Shown: positions 2,021 to 43,291 of the stretch, piece after piece
Numbering within the stretch: the first letter of the stretch is position 1
How the letters are laid out: each line of letters starts with the position of its first letter
Assembly (NCBI GenBank): GCA_037447655.1
Contig: JBBHKE010003573.1
Span: 35,281 to 99,280 of the forward strand
Direction: 5' to 3'
From: Zygnema cylindricum
Lineage: Eukaryota; Streptophyta; Zygnematophyceae; Zygnematales; Zygnemataceae
Length of the DNA: 64,000 nt
Notes under the pieces: model-generated
The model's input: the letters and a program-made list of their open reading frames with translations, nothing else
Database searches by the model: none
Told to the model about the DNA's origin: nothing
Translations under genes and position numbers: made by a program

Positions 2021-2960
2021 ATGCCCACTGATTGGGATAATCTTGACTACTCATACGGATCTACACGTAGTGGTGGAACTTTCCGTTTAACAAATTTTGA
2101 TCAATCAAATTTATCAAATTCGGTTCCTTTGACGTTAAATCCTTTATTTGAATCTAAAGGGTACTCTACTCTTTCACATTTAACCACCGTGTCATCTTTG
2201 TCATCCATTCTATCCACGCTATATGTGGAAGAGGTTGATAACGAAAGGGAACCCGATTCATATTTCCTTTCTTTTTGGTCTTCGTTAGCACCGATTCAGG
2301 CTTTGAATTCGGCTAACTCATCTCTTTCGATGGCCTCCACATCGGAGGGCACTCCCGTAAAGCTTCAATTATGTTTTTTTATGAATGAAAGATACTATGA
2401 GTTTATCTCATTTTGGAATGTTATTCAATACTGAAATGCGAGATCTAGCTTTCCGTTATCAAGATAGATTTGACACGCGGGTCGCTTTTTCCCTTCTTGC
2501 GCGTTACCTTCGCGGTTCCGCTCTCACCTTATATTCCCGCAAATATGATGACATACTTGCGATGACCGAATATTATCCACAGTTTGTTGGTATGCTTGAG
2601 GTCATAGGTCAAGCAGAAATTCCTTTTCAAGCTGTTATTCCGGAGGTCTTAAATGCACACGACAATGTTCTTTGTCCTGCTGTTGCAAAGGTTCCCTATC
2701 AATATGCCATTGTAGCACAAGCCGCTGTTCCAACTCGTCCTGGGATGATTGTACCATTAGGAGATCCTCTCACTGTAATGTTTAATTTGTTACAAGAGGA
2801 GTATCGCATGCAAAATCCTGACCAAGTAAGAGAATTAATGAATTTTGAGCGTAAACCGTGCGAAACTGCCCCCGCTTTACGAACCCGCATGGAGACCTTG
2901 CGGGAACCGTTACCCGATCTAATACTAGATGCTGAAGCTTTCCAGAAGTTTGTTGGATAG
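2021..2960 (+). pseudogene. Gag, N-terminal and capsid-like part (frameshifted)
   Basis: The frame opening at 2021 runs to 2434 and the coding signal continues in another frame from about 2385 to 2960. The first part is Ser/Thr/Asn-rich. The second includes RYQDRFDTRVAFSLLARYL and a stretch ending MFNLLQEEYRMQNPDQVREL, resembling the helical Gag of gypsy elements. Similarity to a named Gag family cannot be shown by eye. The call rests on position directly before zinc knuckles and a protease. The second element copy lacks this part. Confidence 0.55.
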
Positions 2961-3609
2961 TTTCCTTTCTACTCAAAGAAATTATTCAAAGCCATCTTAC
3001 CCAAACATACGGTCTCAAATTTACTTTCGACCAAGTAGCTCAATACGTCGTAGAATACGAGATGACGAATTGTTGGTGGGAGGCCCACGATCGACCAAAA
3101 GCCCCTAAAAAAAAACCTAACCCTTTCAATTCACCAAATCCTCGTAACTTGGGGCCAAATAATCGGCCACCAAGGGTCCTAGCCATGGGAACCCCACCAA
3201 ATCAACCATCCAATCGGATTTGTTTCTGATGTGGCAAGACCGGGCATGATGATCGGATGTGTCCGGATAAATTTGCAACCTGTACACACTGCAAACAGAC
3301 CGGCCACTTTGTGTATCGTTGTCACATCAAAAACCTTGAATTTTCATATCAAAATCAGATTCGAAATGGTGGAATACCGGCTAGATCTGCCAAAGTAGTC
3401 CAACCGGTTAAAGAGCCAGAAAAACATTCTCCACCTAAAGTGTCTTGGAGAGAAAAAGAGAGAGAGGAAATGCAAACTCAAATGGCCGCTATGATGAAAG
3501 ACGAGTTTGCAGCCCTTATGGCTCAAATGAAACCGCCAACTCACCTAACTGGTATTGCTCGTACAGCTGTCCACTTTCTTACGCTAGCTGGTCGAGTTTT
3601 ACAAGATTG
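2961..3609 (+). pseudogene. Gag nucleocapsid with two zinc knuckles
   Basis: In the nucleocapsid of a retroelement, CX2CX4HX4C knuckles bind the RNA genome. The second knuckle is intact near 3281-3325 (CTHCKQTGHFVYRC). The first, just upstream near 3220-3260, has an in-frame TGA between its first two cysteines (ICF, stop, CGKTGHDDRMC). Copy 2 has the same TGA at the same place. A Lys/Glu-rich stretch follows (SWREKEREEMQTQMAAMM), probably a coiled coil. The frame ends at 3608, just before an inserted block. Confidence 0.7.
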
Positions 3610-3625
3610 AACCATCCAAAACCGA

Positions 3626-4288
3626 GAAACTGTTGTTTTTAGAAAGCTTTAGTCCTCTTTATGCCTCAGCTGTGAGAGTGAGCTGTTCAGGACTTAAGCT
3701 ATTTTTGGTTGAGTTCGGTTCAGTACTTACCGAAATTAGTGTGACCGTGAAGTTGGGAGTTCACGGTTCATTCACACTTGGGACACGTGTCGTCACTTGG
3801 GAGAATGCGTGAGTATGTCCTCCGTGGACGTACGGAAATTCGGCAGGACCACTGGACTTCGTGAAGTCAATTCTACGGTGCCAAATCCTCTAATCAGACC
3901 GCTGACAGCCGCTGCCAACAAATAGTGACGAGGCGTGACTAAATCATTATCACTTTACGTTGTCTGAACATCAGCGTAAATATTTGTGATAGAATGTTAG
4001 ATGTATGGCTGGAATGCCTCCGTACAGCCTAGTGTAGTTTCGGTGTATAAAAGTAGGACTTAGTGAATTTGATTTTTAGGAACAATTGATATGAAAACTG
4101 TACACTCAATTTTATGTAATTTCATTTCTACATATCTCACAGATTTATGAGAGGCATTGATTGAAAATTAGTGTGTGTGTTCCTTTGTATGTTATCTACA
4201 GTGTGGCAAATATTCAAGACGTTTAGAGCGTTTTTCTGAAAGTTATAGTCTGTCAAAGTTGCTGTTCAGCCATCGGTATTTGTGGAAG
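3626..4288 (+). mobile_element. LTR-like insertion flanked by a ~90-bp direct repeat of the host element
   Basis: This block interrupts the element between nucleocapsid and protease; copy 2 has no such block. Host sequence 3536-3625 is repeated at 4289-4381 with about 7 differences, so the flanks are a long direct duplication, not a 4-6 bp target site. The block resembles family D LTRs: GTGTATAAAAGTAGGACTTAG at 4046-4066 parallels the TATA and GGACTTAG region of the LTRs at 11388-12269 and 15093-16395, and the tail near 4257-4285 resembles the D LTR end. A likely origin is a solo LTR followed by recombination or template switching. Confidence 0.5.
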
Positions 4289-4975
4289 CCAACTCACCTA
4301 ATTGGTATTGCTCGTACAACTGTCCACTTTCCCACGCTAGCTGGTCGAGTTTTACAAGATTCAACCATCCAAAACCGAGAAACCACGTTTGGAAAGGGGA
4401 CAGTAGATCACAATCGCGAGGGTAAACAGTTTAACACGCGTCTCCCATTATCATTTTCCAAAGAAACTGTAACCAATTTGCCCGAAACAGCTTCCACCAT
4501 CATGGCTGAAGCACTCACAATTCTTGACCGCTCTATCCAAGACAGTCATAGGATTAGGGAAATATTGTGCGTTTTATCCACCATAATTTCGACTCTCCTA
4601 AACCTAAATTTACCGTCTCATCCATCCCATTCGCAACATTTCAATCTTTGCAAATGAACCGTAATTTGGAAGCTTTTAGGCCTATCTCTACCAAAGAGCG
4701 TAGTTCACTCGACCCACACATCAATTTTTTCGAACATTGGAAGGATGCATTTTCAATCAATGGTGTCACACCGTCATTACCACTTATGGTCACCGGTGCA
4801 AAACCAATTATTTTGGGGTCATCTTTTGCACTAAAACTAGGTCTGACAACTGATAAACCTATGTCCACCAACACACGTTTACTCACCTCAGCGGGAACTA
4901 CCGAACCAATTTTCGGCATTACAAAGGATCCACTCTGTTTTAGGTTTCAAAATGGTACAAAATCTGATTTTGCGT
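4289..4975 (+). pseudogene. Retropepsin-like aspartic protease region, copy 1
   Basis: The protease normally cleaves the element polyprotein. The site region reads LMVTGAKPIILGSSF (from about 4783). Copy 2 has LMDTGAKPVILGSSF at 17476 onward. The catalytic Asp codon GAC of copy 2 is GTC (Val) at 4789-4791 here, so this protease should be inactive. The frame changes near 4567-4650. The region continues to the methyltransferase through a spacer with GQDVIF- and VGGDIDMYDQ-like sequence. Confidence 0.7.
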
Positions 4976-5067
4976 AAGTCCGTGCTCACGCATTGGTCAC
5001 CAAATGTAGTGATTACGAGTGTTTAGTGGGGCAAGATGTGATTTTCTGAGTAGGAGGCGATATTGAT

Positions 5068-5258
5068 ATGTACGATCAAACTTTTTCCTACAATCCTACC
5101 AATTATCCAGAAAAGAAAATCTGTCTCACTCTAATTTCAGCACGCCAACCCATACCGATTATGCTCACCCAACCCAATTTGTCCCCGCTATTCCGGAAAT
5201 TCAGAGGATTCAATTTCATTCTCTATCCGCAGAGGAAATTCTGCCCGACAGTCTTTCT
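5068..5258 (+). pseudogene. Polyprotein spacer between protease and methyltransferase
   Basis: The coding signal is weak and frame-shifted. Comparison with copy 2 (about 17760-17950) shows the same words, for example around 5068-5090 and 5220-5260, so it is part of the same polyprotein. Copy 2 has a TAC to TAA change next to the ATG at 17761. No domain is recognised. Confidence 0.45.
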
Positions 5259-6554
5259 TTGCTTGAACTTTTCGATAATCCAGGTTTTATTATTTATTCT
5301 CGCGAGTTTGATCACATCTACAAACACACAACTAAGATTCCATTATCGCGAGTTCTACCTCTTCCTCTCATTTCTGTAGATCCTTCCGGTTTTCTTCCCA
5401 TTAATTGGAAGCCAATTCAGGTCAAACCTCATCAAGATGGTCTGGTCATTTTAGACATATTCGCAGGCATAGGTACCTCTTTACTCTCATGCATTCGCAA
5501 CGGATTACTTATCAAGCACTACTACTCAGTTGACAATGACCCTTTAGCTCGGAAAGCCCAAACACATCAGTGTAATCTTTTACACGGACAATATCCACAT
5601 CTTTTCCCCAAATATGCCTTTGTTCACATGCACACAACCTTACCTAAAGATATTCGTTTGATATGCAATCAACACCTTCTCTTTGTGGAACCAATCGATC
5701 TTCTCTTTGCCGGTTGGGAGTGTCAAAGAATGTCAAGAACAGGCAAAGGTCTCGGCTTAGCTGATCCTTGCACTAAATTATTTTTTGAATTACTTCGTAT
5801 CATGCATTTCCTTCAATCATAAGATCGACCATTGGGATATATTTTGGAAAACGTGGCAGCCTATAACGATCTTTGACCTACAATGTTAGCTCATTACAAG
5901 CGGATAGAAGCATTAATTGGTCCTACTCTTATCAGTGATGCCGCTCGTCACGGGTCCTTAGCTCATCGGGTCCGATATAAATGGACCAACCTGATTGATA
6001 TTGTTCTCCTTAGAGAAGGAAATCTTTGTGTCAGACCCCCTTTTACAGATATTCAGACCGCACTTCTGCCTTTTCACAAAGTCCAAACATGTCTGCAGCC
6101 TGATCACCCGCCAAATAACAACATTAACGTTTCGGGTCAACCACTCAAAGTTCTCCCCTCTCTAGTGTCTTATCCACACTCACACGCTTTCTCTGGTGAT
6201 GGGCCCGGTCTGCTTAGAATCATTCACACAGGCGGCCTAGATGAACCTACAACCACAGAACGGGACCACCTTATGCATTTCCTTCCCAACACCATGGCCA
6301 CCCATGGTCTCACAAAACGGCAGCGCTGCATCATTTTAGGTCTTCTCATGGACCCTCAATCCCTCTCATTTGTCTTAGGCCTCAGATTTGCAACATGTCG
6401 TTACGCACAAACCCATCTGTCTCAACAAGCTAAGGGGGAGAATGCACTATCAATTTCTAAACACATACCTACACGATCTTTGTCAGCCTTAGTGGGACAC
6501 CTTCTAAATATTTCCTCTTTCCATCCCGTAAAAAACCTTTTCCAGATGATATAA
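5259..6554 (+). pseudogene. DNMT3-like C5-cytosine DNA methyltransferase domain, copy 1
   Basis: Enzymes of this family transfer a methyl group from S-adenosylmethionine to cytosine C5 in DNA. Motif I (ILDIFAGIGT, 5448-5477) is the AdoMet-binding loop. SVDNDPLARKA near 5530 resembles motif II. Motif IV is DLLFAGWECQRMS with the nucleophile Cys codon at 5721-5723; the usual Pro before it is Glu. GKGLGLADP and LFFELLRIMHFL follow, as in DNMT3. Motif VI is GYILENV with Glu at 5847-5849. SLAHRVRYKWTNL matches motif VIII. ERDHLMHF and LTKRQRCIILGLLMD look like motifs IX-X. In-frame stops occur at 5820 (TAA) and 5874 (TGA). The first is shared with copy 2; the second is CGA in copy 2. Motif order is unpermuted, so it is unlike plant DRM. 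The target-recognition part is about 150 residues. It is probably no longer functional. Confidence 0.83.
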
Positions 6555-6901
6555 TCTATGATTTTTTGAATCCTAGTAACATGTCATGGTCCATTCCAGT
6601 AAACACTGTTGCCCAATTTGTTCTTTCTAGTCATATTTCAACACCTCCTCACTTGACTTAGGCCCCTCTTACTCGTAGCTGGCACCATTAGATAAACTGC
6701 TTACAGAAAACACCGGTTATTAACTCATTAGGTCAATCACTTATCGCAGATGAACATCTAGCTTTTGCACACGCTATAGAAGGAATGACGATTAAAGGTT
6801 CGAAAACTCCTAAATGAAAATTTGGCTCTAATCTCTCTCAATCGGAACATAATCTACTAAACGAAGTGACTCTTTAGAATATCGACTCTTATGCTTTCTT
6901 T
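6555..6901 (+). pseudogene. Decayed polyprotein between methyltransferase and RT
   Basis: The stretch is broken by several stops and shifts. By position it should be the linker before RT. It contains no recognisable motif. Copy 2 is truncated before this point, so there is nothing to compare within the window. Confidence 0.4.
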
Positions 6902-7350
6902 ATGAATGATCTTGGTCGCCATACCACCTATAAAATGTCTGTAGATCTCGAAGACGGTTGTCCCATTTTCAAGCCAAAACACAGCTTATCCGAAACGAAA
7001 TGGGAATTAGTGGACCAACGTTGCGCTGAATTGGAGGAAGCTGGCCTCATTTATCGGTCGAACTCTACTTTTGCAGCACCCACTGTCATGCCCTGGAAAA
7101 AAGATGTCGAAAGAAACTTTACCGATTGCCGGATGTGCGGCGATTACAGTGAACTCAATGCTAGAACTATACAAGATCAAATCTAATGCCATTGGCCGAA
7201 GAAATATTTGATCATTTAGGAGGCGCTAAATATTTGAGTATTCTTGATATACGACAAGGTTTAAACCAGATTGAAATAGAGGAGAAACATAGGCATGAAA
7301 CCGCCTTTTGGGGTAGTGATGGTCGTTGGGAATGGTGTGTGATGCCTTTT
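6902..7350 (+). pseudogene. Ty3/gypsy reverse transcriptase, N-terminal half only
   Basis: RT copies the RNA genome into DNA. Visible are FKPKHSLSETKWELVDQRC, LEEAGLIYRSNSTFAAPTV and MPWKKDVERNF, followed by CGDYSELNARTIQDQ. After a frameshift at about 7185 come LAEEIFDHLGGAKYLSILDI (the Asp of ILDI is the first catalytic Asp) and ETAFWGSDGRWEWCVMPF. The match stops at about 7350, just after MPF. The second catalytic motif (Y-X-D-D), RNase H and integrase are absent because reverse-strand copia sequence starts there. Confidence 0.8.
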
Positions 7351-7660
7351 CATCCGGTAAGTAACTCATTTTTATCACTCTTGCAAGCACATTTTCTCTC
7401 ACAAAGTGTAGTCTGACATCCATATGTTTGCTTTTAAAATGATGACTAGGGTTAGAGGCAATGGCAATTGCTACCTGGTTGTCACACCAGATAACCTGAG
7501 GACTGGTTAGCATATATCCAAGTTCCTGCAAAGTGGCCTTATCCCATAAGAGTTCATAGAGGGCAGAACAAGCTGCCATATATTTCGACTCCAATCGTGG
7601 ACTGAGCCGTGACCTTCTGTAATTTGCTGCTCCAACAGCAAGTTCCATTCCCAATTTTCA
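7351..7660 (-). pseudogene. Copia RNase H, family D
   Basis: RNase H removes RNA from the RNA:DNA hybrid. On the minus strand the sequence includes KYMAACSALYELLWDKATLQ, VIWCDNQVAIAIASNPSHHF and KSKHMDVRLHFVREN, typical of copia RNase H, where the Asp of CDN is an active-site residue. Homology stops after ARVIKMSYLPDE. The open frame running on to about 7226 is chance read-through into antisense gypsy sequence. The DVMTKP tail normally found at the end is missing. Confidence 0.78.
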
Positions 7661-8700
7661 AAACGAAACCAGTTGTTGATTTACGGTAGCAGCAAAGTTC
7701 CATTCCCCATTTTCAAAACGAAACCGGTTGTTGATTTACAGCTTGGCATATCTCCATAGCTGGCATCACTCGAAGTCTGTTATTTTACCTCTCCTCCTCC
7801 GAGTATAAGCTTGAGGTTTCACGTACCTGCCAAGGATCTGAGAACCCTCTTTGCTGCTTCCCAATCTGCTCTTTCAAAATTATGAAGACTCCTTCTTAGG
7901 ACTCCCGCAGCTGCAGCGATATCAGGTCTCGTACAGTTCATAAAATAAATAAGACTCCCCACTACGTGTCTTTATGGCTTGGTAGCTATAAACTCTTCCT
8001 CCCCTGACTCTAAGCTTTCACTAACCGTTATGCCCGAGTTTGATTCACTCCCCTCCAGCTTCTGTCTAAATTCCAATGGAGTAACAGATCCCTTCACATC
8101 CTTCGTCTCAAATTTTTCCAGCATGTTCCCTTTAGCTTCTTTCTGAGTTAGCATAATCAATCTATTATTTTTATCCCTTTCAGCTTATATGCCCAAGATA
8201 TATTTGGCCTCACCTAGGTCTTTCATTTCAAACTTAGACCTCAAAGCTGCTTTAATACAGTTTATTTCATTTATGGATTTATTTATTAGTAAAAGATACT
8301 CCACTTATACAACGATATAAAGAATCCCATCCTCCCCTTGTAAGACATACACTGAATGGTCCGTACTAATTCTTTTGAATCTTAGACTAGTCAGAAATTC
8401 ATCTAACTTCAGATTCCATGGCAGCTAAACTCAACCAAATTGTGACAGTAGGAAATTTGACGACAGGGGAGAAGGTTTCCTCAAAGTCAATACCTTCTTT
8501 CTGGTTTTACCCTTTGGCCACAAGTCTGGCCTTATACATTTTAATAGTGTTGTCCCAATTTAGTTTGACTTTGAAGACCCACTTGCTCCCAATGGCTTTC
8601 CTCCCCGGGGGCGGGTCCACCAGCTCCCATGTCTGTTCCTCCATAATCGACTTCATCTCGTCGTTGACCCCCTCAATCTAGTGGTTTCTCTCCGGTGATG
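7661..8700 (-). pseudogene. Copia reverse transcriptase, family D (deleted and mutated)
   Basis: The N-terminal part is visible on the minus strand from 8700 (WELVDPPPG, SKWVFKVKLNWDNT, EGIDFEETFSPVVKFPT). At about 8415 the sequence jumps from the LSLAAME region to KLDEFLTSLRF, so roughly 250 bp holding the first catalytic Asp segment and KQAPRQW are missing compared with the intact elements at 41-53 kb. The YVDD position (around 8310) reads stop-V-E-Y. LTQKEAKGNMLEKF follows at about 8110-8160. The enzyme is clearly dead. Confidence 0.72.
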
Positions 8701-9990
8701 AGAAGGCCTCTTTGATGGTCATAGGCTCCCCTGATGCTGTAGAAAAAGCAAAGTGAGAACCGGTTTGTAGAGGACTGCTAGATCTTCTTCCCCCGAGAAT
8801 TCTCAGGCTGAAATGGTGTGCAATCTCCGATTTTGTGATGCTGAAACCGTTGCAGGATCCGAAGGTGTAACATTCTGTTCCTTCTGAGTTTGATGCAGTT
8901 GAGAAGCATCCGTAGCAAGAACAAGCGGTGTAGTAGCAGAAGGTGTACTTATGGTAAGGGATGGCACCGGAAAATACACTTGTTGTTGGTGGTGAAAAAT
9001 GACATACTCATAATTTTGGTTTTCTGTTGGCGTATCTGTTGCTTTGAACAGATCAACCGAATCGTGTTTATCTTTAATCTAGATATTTCGAGACGCAAAA
9101 TCTTTTGTTTATCTAAGACATACACTCTATATCCCTTTGCATTATCATCATAACCCAAGAGAATTCTTGCTAAGCCTTTGGCTTCATTTTCCACTTATCT
9201 TGTGAGTTAACCAAAATAAAGCACTTACTTCCAAAAACTTTAAAGAGACTAACATCTGGGACTTTCCCTGTCCATAACTCATAAGGTGTAGAGCTTACAG
9301 ATCTTGATGCAACTCTATTTTTTATATAGACTGCACAGTTAAGTGCTTCAGGCTCAGAATTTCAGATTTATACCGTTGTCTGCAAGCATGGACCTAGCAA
9401 TCTCTGTGAATGTCCTGTTTAGTCTTTCCGAAACTCCATTTTTCTCAAGGGCATATGGAACTGTCAGATTGTGAATTATACCCTCATCAAGTAGAAATTG
9501 CTTAAATTCGTTAGAGGTGTATTCACCTTCATTATCCGATCTGAATGCCAAGATCGGAACTCCGTGTAGTTTCTCCGCCAAGACCTTGTAGTGCTTAAAG
9601 TGAGTGAATACTTCACTTTTATTCTTTATAAATTAAACTTTCGTGTACCTAGAGAAATCATCAGTGAATGTGACCATATACTAAACTCCTCCAGCCGATG
9701 TCACTTGGGATGGTCCGAGGACATCCGAATGAATGAGCTAGAGGACTTTTGTGGATCAAGTTTCGGTCTCTTGTGGAAATGGCAATTTATGAATCTTGGC
9801 TAGTGAGCAACGATCACATGTTTTCCCAGATTGTGATGTGAGAGAAACACCTTTAACTTTCCTAGCATTCACCATCTTTTTCAGACTTTCATGATTAATA
9901 TGTCCTAACCTCTTATGCTATAATTCATTCTCAGATGACACACTGAAATACAAAACATCTTTTTCTTTGCATTCAGCCATGTCCATCCTG
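8701..9990 (-). pseudogene. Copia integrase, family D
   Basis: Integrase inserts the cDNA into the host genome. The catalytic core is seen at 9354-9581 (FRSDNEGEYTSNEF, then KNGVSERLNRTFTE), carrying the second Asp and the Glu of the DDE triad. The C-terminal GYDDNAKGYRVYVLDK lies at about 9095-9155. The zinc-binding N-terminus is decayed at 9780-9990. A Ser/Thr/Pro-rich linker to RT occupies 8750-8950, and the satellite-embedded fragment at 25 kb matches this stretch. Confidence 0.7.
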
Positions 9991-10031
9991 TACATCTTAC
10001 AGGCATCTCTAGTTCCTGTTACTGCTATTTT

Positions 10032-10364
10032 TCATAGCTTACTAACAACCTGTCTCCCCCCTTTAAGGGTGACCTCGAAACCCTTACTCTCTACCAAAGA
10101 AGTAAAAAATAGATTCTTTTTAAAATCTGGAACATGTAAAACATTGTGAAAGGTCCTTTCTACAGACTTTCCCCCCACATCTACCATTAGAGATACATCA
10201 CCCTGTGGTGAGGACTGGACACTCATGCCACAGGCATAGTAGATATATTTCGGATGAGTTTGCTTTAAATTTGTAAAAATTGCCTTTTCCCAACACATGT
10301 GGGCCGATGCTCCGGTGTCCATGATCCATCCGCCATCTTTGGGACCCTCCATTGCTGCCGCCAT
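10032..10364 (-). pseudogene. Copia aspartic protease and pre-integrase region, family D
   Basis: GWIMDTGASAHMCWEKAIF contains the DTGA active site of retropepsins. It is followed by VLHVPDFKKNLFFTSLVESK, a hallmark of the copia protease / Gag-pre-integrase stretch. The frame closes at 10032 by mutation. It lies directly downstream (minus strand) of gag. Confidence 0.8.
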
Positions 10365-10544
10365 AACAAATAACTCCGCATTCTCTTCATCATTGAAGCT
10401 CAGAGTCGAATCTGCATCACTTGTAACAGTTGAAAAAATTGCATTTCCTCGTGAGGGATTGCCAGAAAAGCCTTGATGAAACTGGCTTTGTTGCCATCCA
10501 GGCCAGTATAAAGCAATTTCATTCCTCTTTTTGAACTTTGGACA

Positions 10545-11348
10545 CTACTTGTAACCTTGCCTTTTTTCAGAACAAGAAAAACAAGCATTAGAAGACTGCC
10601 TATTTTGCCTCTGACTACCTTGATTAAACTGGTTTTCATTCTGGTTAAACTGGTTTCTGTTTTGATTAAACTGATTTCTCCTCTCAAAATTTGTATTGAA
10701 AGATTCTACTTTCTTTTCACCATCAAGAACCTTACTTGTAGACTCTTCTTCTAATACAAGATTGTAAGCTAACTGAAAAGTCCAGCTAGACTTATTATGC
10801 CCTTTTAAAGCTGCAGACACTCCCTTCCTATGACTATGGAGACCTCTAATAAGCAAAGCAGCTTGCTGAAACTCTAGAAAAGTTCCACGAGCCAAAGAGT
10901 GTGCATCAATAAGTTCCCGGAATTTATCGCAATACTCGGCCATTAATCCCCCCGAGTATTTGTAGTCCCAGATCCGACCAGCCACCAAGAGCTCCTCTTG
11001 GACGTTTGCCTTTTCATAGGAACTTTCTAGCAGAGTCCAAATCTCGCTCGCCTTTTTCATCTTGAGCCGAGACATAACCAGACTTTCTGCAATGCAAAGA
11101 ATCAAGTTGCTACTGGCGAGGGAGTTCTTCTTCGCCCAGCTAGGATCTGTTTCAGCAAGAGATCCATCCAAGACTCCTAACAAGTCTGCAGTTTCAAAAG
11201 ATGATTCAACCATAGCTGCCCAGTACGCATACTTCTGGCCATTGAAGACATGAATTTTGGACAAAAGGCCCATAACTTGTTGTTCTACAACCAAAGTTGC
11301 AGGTGGAGGACCACCAGTAATAGTAGATAAAGACATAGACTTCAGCAA
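10545..11348 (-). CDS. Copia Gag, family D
   Basis: Gag forms the virus-like particle. The frame of 267 residues opens at 11348 just inside the 5' LTR. It has the UBN2-type Gag core (KIHVFNGQKYAYWAAMVES, ILCIAESLVMSRLKMKKASE, WTLLESSYEKANVQEELLV). Near residues 225-250 is a three-fold Asn/Gln-rich repeat (RNQFNQN, RNQFNQN, ENQFNQG) before a zinc-knuckle start (CFSCSEK), which is incomplete as the frame is lost at about 10545. The knuckle remainder and linker to protease lie in a shifted frame at 10365-10545. Confidence 0.75.
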   Translation of the reverse strand: MLKSMSLSTITGGPPPATLVVEQQVMGLLSKIHVFNGQKYAYWAAMVESSFETADLLGVLDGSLAETDPSWAKKNSLASSNLILCIAESLVMSRLKMKKASEIWTLLESSYEKANVQEELLVAGRIWDYKYSGGLMAEYCDKFRELIDAHSLARGTFLEFQQAALLIRGLHSHRKGVSAALKGHNKSSWTFQLAYNLVLEEESTSKVLDGEKKVESFNTNFERRNQFNQNRNQFNQNENQFNQGSQRQNRQSSNACFSCSEKRQGYK

Positions 11349-11387
11349 AAGCTACCATAAAACATATCAAACAGCCAACTTTGATAT

Positions 11388-13726: not shown

Positions 13727-14042
13727 ATTCTTTCTCAGGCTGTTGCTAAACCTTAGATTCTCAGGCTGTTGCTGAACCTTGGATTGTGATTAGATAGTTT
13801 TGGGTTTGCTTATGTTGTTTACTGGGTTATAGTGGATTAGGGTTGGCTTTTCTTATGTGTTTTGTGTGTGGCTAAATCTGGTTATCTCAGATTTGCTTGC
13901 AGTTTACTACATTTTCAGTTTATGTATTGTGATAATTAGGTTAGATCTTTATTTATAGAACTCTTGTAAGGAATATAAATTGACCAATGAGCCTAGTGGC
14001 TATCTGTTAGCTTAATATTCTGGTGCTCTTGAAATTTTATGT
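13727..14042 (+). repeat. Dispersed repeat R1, copy 2
   Basis: Matches 651-967 along its length with scattered substitutions. Here it lies inside a copia gag gene, its right end flush with the resumption of gag. The left inverted arm seen at 399-420 is not present. Confidence 0.6.
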
Positions 14043-15092
14043 TTACAACTGTTGTTAAAACATCAACCACCATCACGAACGATGACGAGGAAAGGGAGGA
14101 AATAAACATGGAAGGAGAAAAAGGAGGAGTTGCTTTTCGAGGGATTCATTGTCAAGGACGATACCGGCAGCAACATCACATGCAATGGTGACAAGAGGCA
14201 GACCGATCAGTCAGAATATGAAAATTGGAACTATAAGAACAAGGTGGCTAAGCTCTTAATTCTCAAAAGTGTAGTGAAGGGTATTGCCATTCCTCTTATG
14301 CATGTTAGATCTTCCTCTCAAATTTGCGTATCTTTAGTAAAGAAGTATAAGAGTGGGTCATTGCAGCAACAACAGTTGGTAGAAAATAAGATTTCATCTT
14401 ATGCTTACAAGGGAGGAAGTATGAATGATTATTGCAATGAATTAGGAGCATTATTTGGAGAACTAGAGAGCGCAAGTAACTCATGGTCTGAGAGACAAAG
14501 AGTAAATAAACCATAGTGAAACTACCGAAGAATATGAGAATATCATTAATCGGTTGCAGGATCTAGATGATAGCAATTGGAATTGGGATGATACAGTGGG
14601 GATGATTTTAGTGAAAGAGAGTACCATAGAACTTAGGAGAGGAAGTCCAAGTGTTCAAGCATTGGCTACAAGATCTGATTGGCGGAAGCGTGATGAGGAA
14701 AAGGGAAAGGATCCCTATCGAAACTTTGGAGGAAAAAAACAAAGAGGTGGCAAGTTTGATCGACATGGGAGAGGAGCTCCTCGAGGTGGATTATGTCACT
14801 TGTGCAAGAAACCGGGACATTATATGGCATATTGTGTCAAGCTTGCGAATCTTCGACTGAAAGATGGACAAGGTTCCTCAAAAAATGGAGGAAAAAAAAA
14901 GGTTTTTCTCACTCAAGTTCATGACGAGGAAGAAGATGATGTAACCGAGTCAGAAGAGGAGCTTGAGGAGCTTCTTGTTAAACCAAAAAACCACTGAGAA
15001 GCATGCAGACATTCTACGGAGACAAAAGTGTGCCTTCGGAGGTAAGTGGGATCCACTTGAGAATGGGTGGATCATAGACTCAGGGGCCTCAC
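14043..15092 (+). pseudogene. Copia Gag (C-terminal part) and start of protease, family F
   Basis: Gag resumes with YENWNYKNKVAKLLILKSVV and YKSGSLQQQQLVENKISSYA. A stop near 14515 breaks the frame, which reopens at 14554 (LDDSNWNWDDTVGMILVKES). The zinc knuckle CHLCKKPGHYMAYC (CX2CX4HX4C) lies near 14793-14835, followed by an acidic tail. After a stop at 14995 the protease begins (GWIIDSGAS, about 15066-15090) and is cut immediately after the active-site triad by the LTR at 15093. Confidence 0.75.
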
Positions 15093-16401: not shown

Positions 16402-16960
16402 AAAATTTCCTTTCTAGTCAAAGAAATTATTCAAAGCCATCTTACCGAAACATACGGTCTAAAATTTACTTTCGACCAAGTAGCTCAATACGTCGTAGAA
16501 TACGAGATGACGAATTGTTGGTGGGAGGCCCACGATCGACCAAAAGCCCCTTAAAAAACACCTAACCCTTTCAATTCACCAAATCCTCGTAACTTGGGGC
16601 CAAATAATCGGCCACCAAGGGTCCTAGCCATGGGAACCCCACCAAATCAATCATCTAATTGGATTTGTTTCTGATGTGGCAAGACCGGGCATGATGATCG
16701 GATGTGTCTGGATAAATTTGCAACCTGTACACACTGCTTTTAGACCGACTTCTTTGTGTATCATTGTCACATCAAAAACTTTGAATTTTCATATCAAAAT
16801 CAGATTCGAAATGGTGGAATACCGGCTAGATCTTTTAAAGTAGTCCAACCGGTTAAAGAGCCAGAAAAACATTCTCCACCTAAACTGTCTTAGAGAGAAA
16901 AAGAGAGAGAGGAAATGCAAACTCAAATGGCAGCTATGATCAAAGACTAGTTTGCATCCC
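16402..16960 (+). pseudogene. Gag nucleocapsid region, copy 2
   Basis: Includes the FDQVAQYVVEYEMTNCWWEA segment and both zinc-knuckle positions. The first knuckle carries the same TGA as copy 1 (near 16671-16673). The second knuckle is damaged: CTHC became CTHCF and the following Lys codon became a stop. More stops lie at 16552 and in the coiled-coil region near 16894. Confidence 0.68.
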
Positions 16961-16962
16961 TT

Positions 16963-17670
16963 ATGGCTCAAATGAAACCGCCAACTCACCTAACTGGTAT
17001 TGCTCGTACATTTGTCCACTTTCCCACGCTAGCTGGTCAAGTTTTACAAGATTCAACCATCCAAAACCGAGAAACCATGTTTGAAAAAGGGAATGTAGAT
17101 CACAAGCGCGAGGGTAAACAATTTAACACTCGTCTCCCATTATCATTTTCCAAAGAAACTGTAACCAATTTGCCCGAAATAGCTTCCACCATCATGGCTG
17201 AAGCACTCACAATTCTTGACCGCTCTATCCAAGACAGTCATAGGATTAGGGAAAGATTGTGCATTTTATCCACTATGATTGCCGACTCTCCCGAGCCTAA
17301 ATTTACCGTCTCATCCATCCCATTCGCAGCATTTCAAGCTTTGCAAATGAACCGTAATTTGGAAACTTTTAGGCCTATCTCTGCCGAAGAGCGTAGTTCA
17401 CTCGACCCACAAATCAGTTTTTTGGAACATTGGAAGGATGTATTTTTAGTCAATGGTGTCACACTGTCAATACCACTTATGGACACCGGTGCGAAGCCAG
17501 TTATTTTGGGGTCATCTTTTAAACCAAAACTACGTGTGACACGTGATAAACCTATGTCCACCAACACACGTATACTCACCTCAGCACGAACTACCGAACC
17601 AATTTTGGGCATTACAAAGGATCCACTCTCTTTTAGGTTTCAAAATGGTACAGAATCTTATTTTTCGTAA
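16963..17670 (+). pseudogene. Retropepsin-like protease region, copy 2
   Basis: An open frame of 235 residues. The active site LMDTGAKPVILGSS keeps the catalytic Asp (GAC at 17482-17484), which copy 1 has lost. The N-terminal half (FNTRLPLSFSKETVTNLPEI, ILDRSIQDSHRIRERL) is continuous here, while it is shifted in copy 1. The frame ends at TAA 17668-17670 before the methyltransferase spacer. Confidence 0.75.
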
Positions 17671-17949
17671 GTCCGTGCTCACGCATTGGTCACCAAATGC
17701 AGTGATTACGAGTGTTTAGTGGGGCAAGATGTGATTTTCAGAGTAGGAGGCGACATTGATATGTAAGATCAAAATTTTTCCTACAGTAGTACCAATTATC
17801 TGGAAAAGAAAATGTGTCTCCCTCTAATTTCAGTACGCCAACCCATACCGATTATGGCTCACGCAGCCCAATCTGTCCCTGCTTATTCTGGATATTCGGT
17901 AGGATTCGAAATTTTCCATTCTCTATCCGCAGATGAAATCCTGCCCGAC

Positions 17950-18712
17950 AGTCCCTCTTAGTTTGAACTTTTTGATAATCCCGGTTTTATTGTTGTTTCC
18001 TGCGAGTTTGATCACATTTACAAACACACACTTTAGATTCCCTTATCGCGAGTTCCACCTCTTCCTCTCATTTCCGTAGATCCTTCAAGTTTTCTTCCCA
18101 TTAATTGGAAACCAATTTAGGTCAAACCTCATCAAGATGGTATGGTTATTTTAGACCTATTCGCAGGCATAGGTACCTCTCTACTCTCATGCTTTCGTAA
18201 CGGATTACTTTTCAAACACTATTACTCAGTTGACACTGACCCTTTAGCTCGGAAAGCCCAAACACATCACTGTAATCTTTTATATGGACAATGTCCACAT
18301 CTTTTCCCCAAATATGCCTTTATTCACATGCACACAACCTTACCTCAAGATATTCGTTTGATAGGCAATCAACACCTTCTCGATGTGGAACCAATCGATC
18401 TTCTTTTTGCCGATTGGGAGTGTAAAAAAATGTCACGAGCAGGCAAAGGTCTCGGCTTAGCTGATCCTCGCACTAAATTATTCTTTGAATTACTTCGTAT
18501 CATGCATTTCCTTCAATCTTAAAATCGACCATTCGGATATATTTTAGAAAACGTGGAAGTTTACAATGATCTTCGAACTACAATGTTAGCTGACTACAAG
18601 CGGATAAAAGAATTAATTGGTCCTACTCTTATCAGTGATGCCGCTAGTCACGATTCTAAGCTCATCTGGTCCGATCTAAATGGACCAACTTGAGTGATAT
18701 TGGTCGCCTTAG
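17950..18712 (+). pseudogene. DNMT3-like cytosine methyltransferase domain, copy 2 (truncated)
   Basis: Motif I is ILDLFAGIGT (18151-18180), followed by SVDTDPLARKA. Motif IV region is DLLFADWECKKMS with the nucleophile Cys codon TGT at 18421-18423. GKGLGLADPRTKLFFELLRI follows; the Arg here is Cys in copy 1 (CGC versus TGC). A TAA stop at 18520-18522 is shared with copy 1. GYILENV lies beyond it (Glu 18547-18549), then YNDLRTTMLADYKRI without the second stop of copy 1. Sequence ends near the motif VIII region at the satellite junction. Upstream, PLSRVPPLPLISVD-like sequence is present with stops. Confidence 0.82.
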
Positions 18713-20797
18713 ATAACAATTTTTGTTAGCGCTAACAGTTTGTGTAAGTTAGGTAACAATTCTTGTTAACGCTAATAGTTTATGTAATTTAGATAACAAT
18801 TCTTGTTAGCGTTAACAATTTGTGTAAGTTAGGTAACAGTTCCTGTTAGCACTAACAGTTTGTGTAAGTAAGGAAACAATTCCTGTTAGCGCTAACAGTT
18901 TGTGTAAGTTAGGTAACAATTCTTGTTAGCACTAACAATTTTCTATAATTTTGATAACAATTATTGTTAGTTTTAAAACTTTGTGTAAGTTAGGTAGCAA
19001 TTCTTGTTAACGCTAACAGTTTGTGTAAGTTAGGTAACAATTCTTGTTAGTGTTAACATTTTGTGTAATTTTGATAACAATTCCTTTTAGCGCTAACAGT
19101 TTGTGTAAGTTAGATAATAATTCATGTTAGCGCTAATAGTTTGTGTAATTTAGATAACAATTCCTGTTAGCGCAAACAGTGTTTGTTATTTAGATAACAA
19201 TTCTTGTTAGCGCTAACAGTTTGTGTAAATTAGGTGACAATACCCAAAAAGCACTAACAGTTTGTGTAATTTAGATAACAATTTTTGTTAGCGCTAACAG
19301 TTTGTGTAAGTTAGGTAACAATTCCTGTTAGCGCTAACAATTTGTGTAAGTTAGGTAACAATTCCTGTTAGCGCTAACAGTTTGTGTAATTTAGATAACA
19401 ATTCCTGTTAGCGCTAACAGTTTGTGTAAGTTAGGTAACAATTCCTGTTAGCGCTAATAGTTTGTGTAATTTAGATAACAATTCTTGTTAGCCCTAACAG
19501 TTTGTGTAAGTTAGGTAACAATTCCTGTTAGCGCTTACCGTTTGTGTAATTTAGGTAACAATTCTAGTTAGCGCTATTAGTTTATGTAAGTTAGGTAACA
19601 ATTTTTGTTAGCGCTAACAGTTTGTGTAATTTAGATAACAATTCTTGTTAACGCTAAAATTTTGTGTAATTTAGATAACAGTTCATGTTAGCGCTAACAG
19701 TTTGTGTAAATTAGGTAACAATTCCTGTTAACGCTAACAATTTGTGTAATTTAAATAACAATTCCTGTTAGCGCTAACATTTTGTGTAATTTAGATAACA
19801 GTTCCTGTTAGCGCTAACAGTTTGTGTAAGTTGGGTAACAATTATTGTTAGTGCTTACAGTTTGTGTAATTTAGATAACAATTCTTGTTAGCGCTAATAG
19901 TTTGTGTAAGTTAGGTAACAATTCATGTTAAAGCTTACAGTTTGTGTAATTTAGATAATAATTCCTGTTAGCGCTTACAGTTTGTGTAATTTAGATAACA
20001 ATTCTTGTTAGCGTTAATAATTTGTATAAGTTAGGTAACAATTTATGTTAACGCTTACAGTTTTTGTAATTTAGATAACAATTCTTGTTCGAGCTAACGA
20101 TTTGGGTAAGTTAGTTAACCATTCATGCTAGCACAAACAGTTTATGTAATTTAGATAACAATTCCAGTTAGCGCTAACAGTTTGTGTAAGTTAGGTAAAA
20201 ATTCTAGTAAACGCTAATAGTTTGTGTAATTTAGATAACAATTCCAGCTAGCGCTACCTATTTGTGTATTTTAGATAACATTTATTGTTAGCGCTAACAC
20301 TTTGTGTAATTTAGGTAACAATTCCTGTTAGAGCTAATAGTTTGTGTAATTTAGATAACAATTTTTGTTAGCGCTAAGAGTTTGTGTAAGTTAGGTAACA
20401 ATTCTTGTTAGCGCTAACGGTTTGTGTAAGTAAGGTAACATTTCCTATTAGCGCTAACAGTTTGTGTTATTTAGATAACAATTCTTATTTGCGCTAACAG
20501 TTTGTGTTAATAAGGTAACAATTCCTGTAAGCACTAACAGTTTGTGTAATTTAGATAACTATTCTTGTTAGTGCTAAGAGTTTGTGTACGTTAGATAACT
20601 ATTCGTGTTAGCGCTACCAGTTTGTGTAATTTAGAAAACAATTCTTTTTAGCGCTACAGTTTTTGTAGGTTAGGTAAGAATTCCTGTTAGCGCTAGCAGT
20701 TTGTGTAATTTAGATAACAGTTTTTGTTAGCGCTAACAGTTTGTGTAAGTTAGGTAATAATTCTTCTTAGCGCTAACAGTTTGTGTAATTTAGATAA
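18713..20797 (+). repeat. 40-bp satellite, block 1 (plus orientation)
   Basis: About 52 head-to-tail units of 40 bp. Each unit has the 14-bp palindrome TGTTAGCGCTAACA and a second dyad AACAATTCTTGTT overlapping it. Units come in two linked forms, GTAAGTTAGGT and GTAATTTAGAT, mixed along the block. Few indels, so register is kept over long distances. No coding potential. Confidence 0.95.
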
Positions 20798-23700
20798 CGG
20801 TTAGCGATAACAAATTGTGACCTAAATTAAACAAACAATTAGAGATAACAAAAATTGTTACCTAAATTAACCAAACAGTTAGTGATAACAAGAAATGTTA
20901 CCTAAATTACACAAACTGTTAGCGATAACAAGAATTTTTATCTTAATTACAGAAACTGTTAGGGACAACAAAAATTGTAACCTAAATTAACTAAACTGTT
21001 AGTGATAACAAGAATTGTTACCTAAATTACAAAAACTATTAGCAATAACAAAAATTGTTACCTAAGTTACACAAACTGTTAGCGATAACAAGAATTATTA
21101 CAAAAATTACAAAAATTGTTAGCGATAACAAAAATTGTTACCTAAATTACACACACAGTTAGCGCTAAAAAGAATTGTTACCTAAATTACAAAAACTTTT
21201 AGCGATAACAAGAATAGTTACCTAAATAACACAAACAGTTAGCGATAACAAAAATTGTTACCTAAATTACAAAAACAATTAGCGATAACAAAAATTGTTA
21301 CCCAAATTATAAAAACTGTTAGCGATAATGAGAATTGTTACTTAAACTACACAAATTGTTAGCGATAACAAGAATTGTAACCTAAAGTACACAAATTATT
21401 AGAAATAACAAGAATTGTTACCTAATTTAAACAAACTGTTATCTATAACTAGAATGGATACCTAAATTACACAAACTGTTAGCGATAACAAGAATTGTTA
21501 CCTAAATTACATTAAAAGTTATCGATAACAAGAATTATGACCTAAATTACAGAAACTATTAGCGATAACAAGAAATGTTACCTATATTACAAAAATTGTT
21601 AGCGATAACAAGAATTGTTTCCTAAATTACACAAACTGTTAGTGATAACAAGAATTGTTACCTAAATTAACCATACAGTTAACGATAACAGGAATTGTTA
21701 TCTAAATAACACAAACTGTTTGCGCTTACAGGAATTGTTACCTAATTTACACAAACTGTTAGCGAGAACAAGAATTGTTACCTAACTTACACAAATTGTT
21801 AGCGATTACAAGAATTGTTACCTAAAATAAAAAAATTGTTAGCGATAACAAGAATTGTTACCAAAATTTCACAAACAATTAGCGATAACATTAATTATTT
21901 CCTAAAGTACACAAACTATTAGCGATAACAAGAATTGTTACTTAAACTACAAAAATTGTTAGGGATAACAAGAATTGTTACCTAAATTACACAAACAGTT
22001 AGCGATAACAATAATATTTACCTAAATTAACCAAAAAGTTAGCGATAACAGGAATTGTTATTTAAATTACAAAAATTGTTTGCGCTTATAGGAAATGTTT
22101 CCTAACTTACAAAAACAGTTAGCAATAACAAGAATTGTGACCTAATCTACACAAACTTTTAGCATTAACAATAATTGTTACCTTAATTACAAAAACTGTT
22201 AGCGATAACAAGAATTGTTACCTAAATTACATAAACTCTTAGCGATAACAAGAATTGTTACCTAGATTACACAAAGTGTCAGCGAGAACAAGAATTGTTA
22301 CCTAAATTACACAAATTGTTAGTGTTAACAAGAATTGTAACCTAAATTACAAAAACTATTAGCGATAACAAGAATTATTACCTAAATTACACAAACAGTT
22401 AGCGATAACAACAATTGTTTCCTATATTACAGAAACGGTTAGCGATAACAAAAATAATTACCTAAATTAACCAAACAGTTAGCGATAACAATAATTATTA
22501 CCTAAATTACACAAACTGTTAGCGATAACAAGAATTCTCACCTAAATTAACGAAATAGTTAGCGAAAACAGGAACCATTATCTAAATTACACAAACTGTT
22601 TGCGCTTACAGGAAATGTTACCTAACTTACACAAACTGTTAGCGATAACAAGAATTGTTACCTAAATTACAAAAACTGTTAGCGATAACAAGAATTGTTA
22701 CCTAAATTACACAAACTAATATCGATAACAGGAATTATTACCTAAATTACAAAAATTGTTTGCGATAACAAGAATTTTTACCTAAATGACACAAACTATT
22801 AGCGATAACAAGAATTGTTACGTTACTTACACAAATTGTTAGCGTTAACAAGAATTGTAACCTATATTACAAAAACTGTTAGCGATAACAAGAATTGTCA
22901 CCTAAAATACACAAACGGTTAGCGATTAGAAGAATTGTTACCTAAATTACACAAACTGTTAGCGATAACAAAAATTGTTACCTAAATTACAAAAACTAAT
23001 AGCGATAACAAGAATTGTTACCTAACTTACACAAACTGTTAGCGTTAACAAAAATTGTAACCTAAATTACAGAAACAGTTAGCGATAATAAGAATAATTA
23101 CCTAAATTAACCAAACAGTTAGCGATAACAATAATTTTTACGTAAATTACACAAACTGTTAACGATAACAAGAATTCTTACCTAAATTAACGAAATAGTT
23201 AGCGAAAACAGGAACTATTATCTAAATTACACAAACTGTTTGCGCTTACAGGAATTGTTACCTAACTTACACAAACTGTTAGCGATAACAAGAATTGTTA
23301 CCTAAATTACAAAAACTGTTAGAGATAACAAGAATTGTTACCTAAATTACACAAACTAATATCGATAACAAGAATTGATACCTAAATTACCAAAATTGTT
23401 AGCGATAACAAGAATATTTACCTAAATTACACAAATAGCTAGCAATAACAAGAATTGATTCCTAAATGACACAAACTATTAGCGATAACAAGAATTGTTA
23501 CCTAAATTAACCAAACAGTTAGGGATAACAGGAATTGTTATCTAAATTACACAAACTGTTTACGCTTACAAGAATTGTGACCTAAATTACACAAACTGTT
23601 AGCGATAACAATAATTGTTACGTAAATTACAAAAATTGTTAGCGATAACAAGAATTGTTACCTAAATTACACAAACTGTTAGCGATAACAGGAGTTGTTA

Positions 23701-24672
23701 CCTAAATTACACAAACTGTTAGCGATAAGAAGAATTGTTACCTAAATTCAGAAACTGTGAGCGATAACAAGAATTGTGACCTAAATTACACAAACTGTTA
23801 GCGATAACAAGAATTGTTACGTAAATTACAAAAACTGTTAGCGATAACAAAAATTGTTACCTAAATTACACAAACTGTAAGCCATTAGAAGAATTGTTAC
23901 CTAAATTACACAAACAGTTAGCGGTAACAAGAATTGTGACCTAAATTACACAAAGTGTTAGCGATAACAAGAATTGTTACCTAAACTACAAAAACTGTTT
24001 GCGATAACAAGAATTATTACCTAAATTACAAAAACTATTAGCTAAACAAGAATTGTGACCTAAATTACAAAAATTGTTAGCGATAACAAAAATTGTTACC
24101 TAAATTACACAAACTGTTAGCGATAACAAGAATTATTACGTAAATTACAAAAACTGTTAGCGATAACAAAAATTGTTACCTAAATTACACAAACTGTTAG
24201 CGATAACAAGAATTGTTACCTAAATTACACAAACAGTTAGCGATAACAAGAATTGTTACGTAAATTACAAAAACTGTTAGCGATAACAAAAATTGTTACC
24301 TAAATTACACAAATAGTTAGCGATAAGAAAAATTGTTATCTAAATTACACAAACTTTTAGCGATAACAAAAATTGTTACCTAAATTACAAAAACAGTTAG
24401 CAATAACAAGAATTGTGACCTAAAGTACACAAACTGTTAGCTATAACAAGAATTGTTACCTAAATTACACAAACTATTGACGATAACAAGAATTGTGACC
24501 TAAATTACACAAACTGTTAGCGATAACAACAATTGTTACCTAAATTACAAAAACAGTTAGCGATAAAAAAAATTGTAGCCTTAATAACACAAACGATTAG
24601 CGATAACAAGAATTGTTACCTAAATTAACCAAACAGTTAGCGATACCAAAAATTGTTACCTAAATTACACAT
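20798..24672 (-). repeat. 40-bp satellite, block 2 (inverted, broken palindrome)
   Basis: About 97 units of the same 40-bp repeat read on the minus strand. On the plus strand the core is TTAGCGATAACA instead of TTAGCGCTAACA, so the palindrome is interrupted in almost every unit. The neighbouring position reads CCTAAATTAC, that is GTAATTTAGG on the minus strand, a combination uncommon in the plus blocks. The block is therefore a separate subfamily and not a simple inversion of block 1. Confidence 0.95.
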
Positions 24673-25090
24673 TTTGATAGTTAGTGATTTGTTGACAGCT
24701 CACAAGTGTATATATAGCTATGAGCTTTGTTAGCGAAATCATCAATGTTGGTTAGTAAAGTGGGGACCAAAGATGTAGTATTTTAGGGTTGTCGATTAGG
24801 TCATGCACTTTGAATGATATAATGATTATTTGATTATACTTTGATTATACTTTTGTTTATGTGTGATGCATTTGTTTGTTATTATTTATTTATGTTATTT
24901 TATATATGTTTGATATGTATTGTTTATGCATTTGTCCTAGTGTTTGTTTATGTTGATTATTCCATCAAACCTTAGTTATTGTATGTTAAATGGAGGATGC
25001 ATTATAAATGAATATTCATTGGCCTAGCTTCGCTTAGCTTTTTGCATGATAGTTTGGGTGGCTTCTGCGGTCTATTTTAGACCAAAGAAC
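24673..25090. other. Non-satellite AT-rich island
   Basis: About 420 bp without repeat units and without coding potential, rich in TTTGTTTATG-like words. It lies between the inverted satellite block and a copia fragment. Nothing else in the window matches it. It may be flanking DNA carried with the copia fragment. Confidence 0.5.
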
Positions 25091-25645
25091 AACATGGGTT
25101 TCCTCCCCGGGGGTAGGTCCACCAGCTCCCATGTCTGTTCCTTCATAATCGACTTCATCTCGTCGTTGACCGCCTCAATCAAGTGGTTTCTCTCTTGTGA
25201 TGAGAAGGCCTCTTTCATGGTTATAGGCTCCCCTGATGCTGTAGAAAAAGCAAAGTGAGAACCGGTTTGAAGACGACTACTATATCTTCTTCCCCTAAGA
25301 AATTATGAGACTGAAATGGTCTGCAATCTCCGATTTCATGATGCTGAAACTGTTGCAGTATTCGAAGGTGTAGCAGTCTGTTCCTCTGGAGTTTGATGCA
25401 GTGGAGAAGCATCCGTAGCAAGAACAGACGGTGTAGTAGCATAAAGTGTATTTATGGGAAGAGATGGCACCGAAAAATACAACTGTTGTTGGTGGTGTAA
25501 AATGACATACTCATGTTTCTGGTTTTCTGTTGGCGTATCTGTTGCTTTGAACAGATCAACCGAATCCTGTTCATCGTTAATCTGGATATTCCTAGACACA
25601 AAAATGTTTTGTTTATCTAAGATGTACACTCTATATCCCTTTGCT
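25091..25645 (-). pseudogene. Copia family D fragment inside the satellite
   Basis: Matches 8590-9150 of the family D element in the same orientation: the RT N-terminus, the Ser/Thr/Pro-rich linker and the integrase end (KGYRVYILDKQN on the minus strand). Both ends are abrupt; the right end CTATATCCCTTTGC passes directly into satellite TAACTGTTTGTG. It is a small piece without LTRs, left by deletion or rearrangement. Confidence 0.8.
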
Positions 25646-37345: not shown

Positions 37346-37349
37346 AAGT

Positions 37350-40212: not shown

Positions 40213-41265
40213 TGAAACTCAAAGACCTCCATAAGTCCTCAGAGTGGACAGCTTCGAAGAAGCCTCTAGGATAATCCTGACCCCTTTGTATTTCAGCAAA
40301 AATAACTGCCACCGTGGCAGACAAAATCTCTGACCACCTGCTCCCTTGTGAAGGCAAGACTCCCCTGAGTCGATAGCAAAAAGAATCTCTGAATTTGCTC
40401 TCCTGAGCAGTAAGTTATGGAGGGTCAAAGTTGACCTTTTGTACAAAAGCTCTCTAGGAGAGAGGGTCCTATCTCCTAATTTTTCTAAGTCCTATCTCTC
40501 TCACAGACTCTATCTACTAATGTACGGAACCAATCAGAATACAGTTCCGTACGCAAAAGTACAGCTGCCGATGTACTTTATGTACGGACATTGTACGACA
40601 TGGCCTTAATGTCGACACATGTCATATCCGGATTCGGTGCCATAATCTCCGGAGATTCCACGATCCAATGTAATTTCGCCACGCGTCATCCGATGTGGCG
40701 ATGGCCACAAACCGCCGAAATCTTCTTTCGCGATCTCGGCGCTAATTCCGACAGTCCGATTAGATTCGAATTTAATCGTAGCCGTAATAAACATGCGCGG
40801 TATTCGTTTCACTTAAGAAATAAATGCGCGGTATTGATTTCTTGCCCGTACCGTATTCCGTACTTATACATTACCGGATCTATGTATACCGTAAACAATT
40901 ACAGTTAAATGATTTATCCTACGTTTACGTGTTTAAATAAATATCAAACTATATACTACGTAATGTTAGTCATAGAGTTAACGGCTAAGGCTACCGGCTA
41001 CTTCCTGTCTGCCGGTCGGTAGGTACAAGGATCAATTCCTGTCGCCGGCAGATTCCTTTTTAATAAATAAACCCTAAATAATATAAATTTCATGTAAACC
41101 TCTGGATAGCCTAGGTAGCCATGGCTCTAGCTCCCTCTCCAATTTCTCAGTGACTGCGACAAGTTTGAGAGTTGGAGAGAGAAGTTAGAGGTAGATTGCC
41201 TCAGCTTCTTTCTATATTTCTATTTAGACCTAGAAAATACTAAAAATGGACCATTAATTTCTACA
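40213..41265 (-). mobile_element. 3' LTR of A2
   Basis: 1053 bp. Contains a GTAC dyad (40546-40588), the palindrome AATCTCCGGAGATT (around 40647), the tRNA-like module (41009-41051, outer CTGCCGG/CCGGCAG) and the hairpin GACTC-AGGG-GAGTC on the minus strand near 40357-40370; the second hairpin is degraded. Confidence 0.9.
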
Positions 41266-41278
41266 CTCCCCTTATTTT

Positions 41279-43234: not shown

Positions 43235-43291
43235 AACTACTAGATGCTTTACTAAGATTATATCTTCCCTTTTTAGATCATAAACTCTATA

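Follow-up and report, generated by a model that had tools for sequence, protein, structure and literature searches.

The 64,000-nucleotide stretch of Zygnema cylindricum DNA analysed here (contig JBBHKE010003573.1, positions 35,281 to 99,280; hereafter the window, to whose positions all coordinates refer) holds two dead relics of a family of Ty3/gypsy-type long terminal repeat (LTR) retrotransposons that carry a DNMT3-like cytosine methyltransferase domain (DNMT) between protease (PR) and reverse transcriptase (RT). This identity is practically certain, and the family has well-preserved, recently moved copies in the same genome.

The methyltransferase domain of the window

In the first of the two copies the domain is spread over two open reading frames (ORFs), 5067-5822 and 5877-6554, which lie in the same frame and are interrupted by a TAA at 5820-5822 and a TGA at 5874-5876. 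The hidden Markov model search that the first-pass annotation had proposed was run on the translation of 5067-6554 with the stops read as X, and gave a match to PF00145 above the cut-off of 22 bits (36 bits, E=7.1e-9), limited to residues 128-264 of the translated stretch. The second ORF (5877-6554) alone gave no match to PF00145, and the C-terminal part of the domain therefore rests on relatives. Comparison by tblastn with the Marchantia protein P0029 showed that 5397-6419 is the conserved part, that 5259-5396 is an N-terminal extension and that 6420-6554 is mostly poorly conserved. Five motifs follow each other in unpermuted order: motif I (ILDIFAGIGT, 5448-5477), motif IV (AGWECQ, 5709-5726), motif VI (ENV, 5847-5855), motif VIII (AHRVRYKWTNL, 5961-5993) and a motif X-like segment (ILGLLMDPQSLSFV, 6333-6374).

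A search of PDB sequences with the window protein placed DNMT3A, 3C and 3B at the top (7e-8 to 9e-5) and HhaI at 0.037, while a profile of relatives ranked DNMT3A (5.4e-22) and DNMT3B (4.1e-19) before DRM (1.6e-8), HaeIII (2e-8) and HhaI (3.6e-7). The fold predicted for a 39%-identical relative supports a DNMT3-like methyltransferase, and the predicted fold is complete in a relative with GWECQ. The plus strand of 5397-6419, with its two in-frame stops and Glu-Cys-Gln in motif IV, is thus confirmed to encode a C5-cytosine methyltransferase domain which among solved structures is nearest to DNMT3A/3B.

Copies elsewhere in the genome

The assembly (352.8 Mb in 2,689 contigs) was then searched, all match counts being lower bounds. 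P0001 as query gave at least 86 matches (scored from 1,853 first-look candidates), 11 of them free of internal stops, PF00145 gave at least 123 (from 782 candidates) and the RT of the intact copy gave at least 150 (from 3,092 candidates). Five copies, E28 (on C1344), E29, E23, E27 and E33, were compared in detail. E28, the intact copy, is a single stop-to-stop frame of 2,395 codons with the order gag, protease, DNMT, RT, RNase H (RH), integrase (INT) and PHD finger. The DNMT, RT, RNase H, H2C2 and rve integrase (rve, E=6.6e-12) and PHD domains of this frame are above the Pfam cut-offs, and two CCHC knuckles and a DTGA protease, both below the cut-off, are clear from pattern and BLAST. The first-pass annotation had placed the domain between the protease and RT of a gypsy-type element and had called for a genome search for intact copies. 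The intact copy, together with similarities on both sides of the window domain (4612-5097 and 6818-7350), bears out this placement; E28 carries the DNMT inside the gag-pol frame, so the refuting observation named by that annotation, intact copies with the domain outside this frame, was not made.

The phage-integrase (tyrosine recombinase) search of both halves of the E28 ORF gave no match. From its rve integrase and its PR..RT-RNase H-integrase order the family is classified as a Ty3/gypsy LTR retrotransposon and not as DIRS. In E28 the A repeats on both sides of the coding part are identical over 931 bp (100%), the second A is flanked by B repeats that are 99.6% identical, and the ends (TGTCATGC...GCACGACA) have TTGG on both sides, a 4-bp target duplication. 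CCAT stands on both sides of E27, TCAT and GCAT (3/4 bases) stand on the two sides of E23, and no 5' end could be located for E29; the short target duplication at the TG...CA ends is thus exact in two of the three copies with both ends seen. The A-coding-B-A-B layout is represented by B-A-B in four of the five copies (E28, E29, E23 and E27) and by both A copies in three of the five, while in E33 B-A-B was not seen and the single A-like repeat detected (73%) lies upstream. Across the compared domains E28 and E29 hardly differ.

Linkage to RT and composition of motif IV

Linkage was examined for the best 30 of the 150 RT matches. A listed DNMT match lies upstream on the same strand in 19 of them (coordinates compared by eye; C1506 at about 2.5 kb), and in ten of the other 11 DNMT sequence occurs within the 1,500 bp upstream, in three of these only as short parts. 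C122 had no DNMT sequence in the 1,500 bp upstream of its RT match. DNMT sequence is therefore found upstream in 29/30.

A census of motifs in 30 of the 86 loci, the window's own included, showed that glutamate takes the place of proline before the catalytic cysteine in all 30, as it does in P0002 and P0003. The cysteine itself is present in 29 (phenylalanine in L040) and is kept in both window copies, and the EN of motif VI is present in 29 (EKV in L026). Pro-Cys is usual in motif IV of C5-cytosine methyltransferases; hence we call the domain DNMT3-like and not a standard member. A second DNMT lineage of the same genome (L053-L055, L058 and L060-L064), which groups with P0039 (95/80), has Pro-Cys-Gln in the six rows examined of its nine loci. 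In one of its members, C1374, a 1,520-codon open frame holds DNMT-RT-RH-INT-PHD, the A repeats are 96.9% identical over the 543 bp compared and the two B copies start about 4 kb apart; a protease query found nothing upstream.

The two decayed copies and their surroundings

Copy 1 has, on the plus strand, a gag remnant at 2385..2960, an open stretch of 191 codons that by eye resembles the gag of L012 (described below) and gave no match in a Pfam search. Two CCHC zinc knuckles, recognised by pattern, follow at 3221..3322 (plus strand), the first interrupted by a TGA that is common to copy 2; the pair is intact in the 2,395-codon genome copy. The aspartic protease remnant (4612..5097, plus strand) was found by tblastn with P0029, P0018, P0031 and P0002, while Pfam protease models gave no match in the window frames tried; its motif is VTGA, and DTGA in copy 2. 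Behind the DNMT an RT remnant in two frames (6818..7350, plus strand) was recognised by tblastn with P0039 and P0008 and by a tree, the RVT_1 match in the window being weak (E=0.0061, below the cut-off). In the window itself only these PR and RT remnants are left of the protease-RT-RNase H-integrase order. A copia-type remnant on the minus strand (7389..11351) adjoins copy 1 directly after the RT part, and no further gypsy frame was found past it. Copy 1 also has a 657-bp insertion (3631-4287) with a 96-bp direct duplication of its flanks (3535-3630 and 4288-4383), which is not in copy 2.

Copy 2 (16406-18726), truncated by a satellite array, consists on the plus strand of a gag part at 16406..17075, 95.1% identical to 2961-3630, and of the gag C-terminal end, protease and N-terminal DNMT part at 16980..18726, 90.7% identical to 4288-6029. 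Protease and DNMT are in one frame in copy 2 and in different frames in copy 1, which compared with copy 2 lacks 7 nt in four gaps between 5162 and 5213. Comparison by eye showed three in-frame stops common to both copies (zinc knuckle TGA, protease TAA and DNMT TAA); either the common source was therefore already defective or the copies are duplicates. Because of these stops an alternative genetic code was considered, and was rejected since the standard code leaves open both a 906-codon copia frame and the 2,395-codon frame of the element.

The satellite array, whose unit measures about 40 bp, extends over 18730-37350 and is partly reversed in orientation (about 20850-24680). Further copia-type elements lie at 40213-45490, 49440-54708 and 60492-61586; among the copia-type elements of the window, two oppositely oriented ones share about 95% identity, and one has the 906-codon frame (49288-52008). 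A 317-bp repeat (651-967 and 13728-14044) is 93.7% identical between its copies, about 50 bp of each resembling the A repeat of the intact copy. Rfam gave no match in the window at the gathering threshold.

Selection and CpG content

The ratio of nonsynonymous to synonymous substitution rates (dN/dS) between E28 and E33 was 0.213 for gag, 0.376 for PR, 0.175 for DNMT, 0.022 for RT, 0.049 for RH and 0.229 for INT. E29/E33 is nearly the same pair, and dS was saturated in most other pairs; a second DNMT value, 0.047, rests on a nearly saturated dS. Both DNMT values lie below the Ka/Ks of 0.2 that marks purifying selection in the KnitGypsy-Dnmt3 type of element. Between the two window copies dN/dS was 0.44 for DNMT (5229-5951) and 1.71 for gag-PR (4600-5158), despite the shared stops. 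Compared with simulated random change, silent change between these copies was above expectation in DNMT (p 0.008) and below it in gag-PR (p 0.027), a contrast that may be due to chance.

For the two window copies the observed/expected ratio of CpG was 0.85 and 0.83; the halves of E28 gave 0.92 and 0.86, and the DNMT match of 29 loci (L014-L042, that of E28 included) gave 0.59-0.91. Two copia frames were at 0.49 and 0.43, and three other window stretches at 0.63-0.92. The copia deficit is partly a matter of codon make-up; among four-fold Ser, Pro, Thr and Ala codons, three copia frames had NCG shares of 0.14, 0.09 and 0.11, and E28 had 0.16. For DNMT alone this share was 12/93 in E28, 2/77 in window copy 1 (Fisher p 0.022) and 1/43 in copy 2. 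The lower share in the window copies fits CpG decay with age or a codon bias of the subfamily, and does not indicate the source of methylation.

Relatives outside this genome

Three protein searches for relatives gave 3, 1 and 35 proteins. Among the 35, seven bear the name of Marchantia polymorpha and one that of Calypogeia fissa, both liverworts; most others are unnamed or generically named. The commonest domain order by BLAST is gag followed by PR-DNMT, and RT follows DNMT in P0031, P0035, P0039 and P0040. The six close homologues P0009-P0014 have a common end point (SATK, SATQ or SATE), which the distant P0015-P0017 do not share.

All eight liverwort proteins (P0029-P0032 and P0034-P0037), labelled at the source only as hypothetical, uncharacterized or unnamed, have the PR-DNMT order of the window family. 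Zinc-knuckle gag was matched in P0029, P0034, P0036 and P0037, and RT follows DNMT in P0031 and P0035. Their DNMTs are 36% (P0029) and 34% (P0030, from Calypogeia fissa) identical to that of the window. Unlike the window domain with its glutamate, seven of the eight have Pro-Cys-Gln in motif IV, the pattern not being found in P0035. In a tree with a piece of human DNMT3A as the only outgroup they form a separate clade with the unnamed P0027 and P0033 (100/99).

L012 (contig CADCWO010000201.1) resembles the intact genome copy in having gag-PR-DNMT followed by RT-RH-INT-PHD, its protease being below the Pfam cut-off, and the best PDB match of its pol is Ty3 (6.7e-100). It differs in having Pro-Cys-Gln in motif IV and one in-frame TAG between DNMT and RT, whose context (TAG CAA TCA) agrees with UAG CAR YYA, a readthrough pattern of plant viruses. 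The ends of L012 overlap by 127 bp, so the contig was assembled as a circle. It is filed under a Synechococcales (cyanobacterial) metagenome-assembled genome and is probably eukaryotic contamination.

A different position of the DNMT was seen in P0006, P0041 and P0042, which have related DNMT, RT and integrase in the order RT-RNase H-DNMT-integrase. Their DNMTs form one clade with that of P0043 (97/97), in which P0006 carries a long-branch warning. A PHD finger is C-terminal to the integrase in P0006, P0042, L012 and the C1344 copy, that is, in elements of both domain orders. A phage DNA similarity search gave no match, nor did P0001, P0007 and P0042 against viral contigs; the family alignment A2 gave short matches (27-43% identity) in 11 viral contigs, which we take as ordinary viral methyltransferases.

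Discussion

The precedent invoked by the first-pass annotation, methyltransferases captured by retrotransposons of charophytes and dinoflagellates, is real. In the sections of PMC5890265 available to us, Gypsy elements of K. nitens (Klebsormidium nitens), KnitGypsy-Dnmt3, are described with unpermuted Dnmt3-related domains in Pol, DIRS-like A-coding-B-A-B repeats and purifying selection. The window family shares its unpermuted Dnmt3-related domain, repeat layout, gypsy domains and purifying selection with these elements and so is, judged by description, a variant of this published kind, in a comparison that leaves domain position, PHD finger and motif IV aside (PMC5890265, same sections). None of the relatives from the three protein searches is named as K. 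nitens. According to the same sections, SymbioDIRS-Dnmt3 of Symbiodinium likewise has a Dnmt3 domain in a retrotransposon polyprotein and A-coding-B-A-B repeats, but has a tyrosine recombinase and no DDE integrase and belongs to another element class (PMC5890265). An excerpt of PMC12344493 refers to the same work as DNMT3 in 'LTR Copia and DIRS' elements, naming Copia rather than Gypsy. In a limited search of open-licence papers, the portions of text retrieved held no description of liverwort DNMT elements, of the glutamate motif, of a C-terminal PHD finger or of the two DNMT positions among relatives; the consulted parts of PMC6453930, PMC10952607 and PMC12344493 likewise did not describe liverwort DNMT elements.

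We propose that the DNMT, as a part of the polyprotein, would enter the virus-like particle together with RT and would methylate cytosines of the double-stranded cDNA of the element prior to integration, so that new insertions would already be marked on arrival; the PHD finger beside the integrase would probably read chromatin and steer insertion. Catalysis, the cDNA substrate, PHD-guided insertion and any benefit to the element are what we infer. This explanation as a whole, with cDNA as the main substrate, seems to us probable, though well short of secure. A more specific and rather doubtful version unites writer and reader in one gypsy polyprotein, in which a fixed Pro-to-Glu DNMT with altered context or strand preference would mark cDNA and the PHD finger would direct insertion, in a recently active family that reaches the liverworts and in which the DNMT changed its place in the polyprotein or was acquired on more than one occasion (PR-DNMT-RT as against RNase H-DNMT-integrase).

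The rival that deserves most attention, although we find it unlikely, is that the domain is kept for binding and not to methylate DNA, with the motif IV glutamate serving a role in nucleic-acid binding, packaging or RNA modification. The glutamate of all 30 own-genome loci, P0002 and P0003 would suit such a role, as would the failure of KnitGypsy-Dnmt3 to methylate in yeast, an outcome that its authors call inconclusive in the accessible part of PMC5890265. Against it stand the catalytic cysteine and the motif VI EN, each in 29/30 loci, the Pro-Cys-Gln kept in sibling lineages and the complete fold predicted for the GWECQ relative. We regard as improbable an action of the enzyme in trans, on the chromatin of the host or on related elements, by which it would influence the host epigenome and not mark its own cDNA: the many copies in the genome are compatible with it, and it is discussed for Symbiodinium in the available sections of PMC5890265, but the DNMT-RT linkage in 29/30 of the best RT matches favours a role inside the replication complex.

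The origin of the domain leaves less latitude. Derivation from DRM, CMT/DNMT1 or a bacterial methyltransferase, in place of DNMT3, is very improbable, given that DNMT3A leads DRM and HaeIII by about 13 orders of magnitude in the PDB ranking and that the motif order is unpermuted, unlike that of DRM. The unpermuted DNMT3-like methyltransferase named by the first-pass annotation is upheld by PF00145, the PDB ranking, the fold predicted for the 39%-identical relative and the intact copy. A fragment of a host methyltransferase that landed by chance in one gypsy copy could be imagined from the window copy alone, which is broken and has protease and DNMT in different frames; the same order in copy 2, the intact and many other copies in the genome and the independent relatives rule it out, and we give it next to no weight.

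Cytosine methylation usually silences transposons, and elements with a de novo methyltransferase of their own would turn this host defence into a part of their own cycle. The family is abundant in this genome and some of its copies moved recently, which makes cDNA methylation before integration testable in a living host. The natural occurrence of lineages with either Glu or Pro in the catalytic loop allows enzyme function to be studied by comparison. A land-plant case, raised by the first-pass annotation as an extension, holds for the family through proteins named as liverworts. In the part of PMC6338049 (2019) consulted, methylase transposons are said to be absent from land-plant genomes; the liverwort gag-PR-DNMT proteins, as far as their sequences and names go, speak against this statement and would place the phenomenon in land plants, the model Marchantia polymorpha included.
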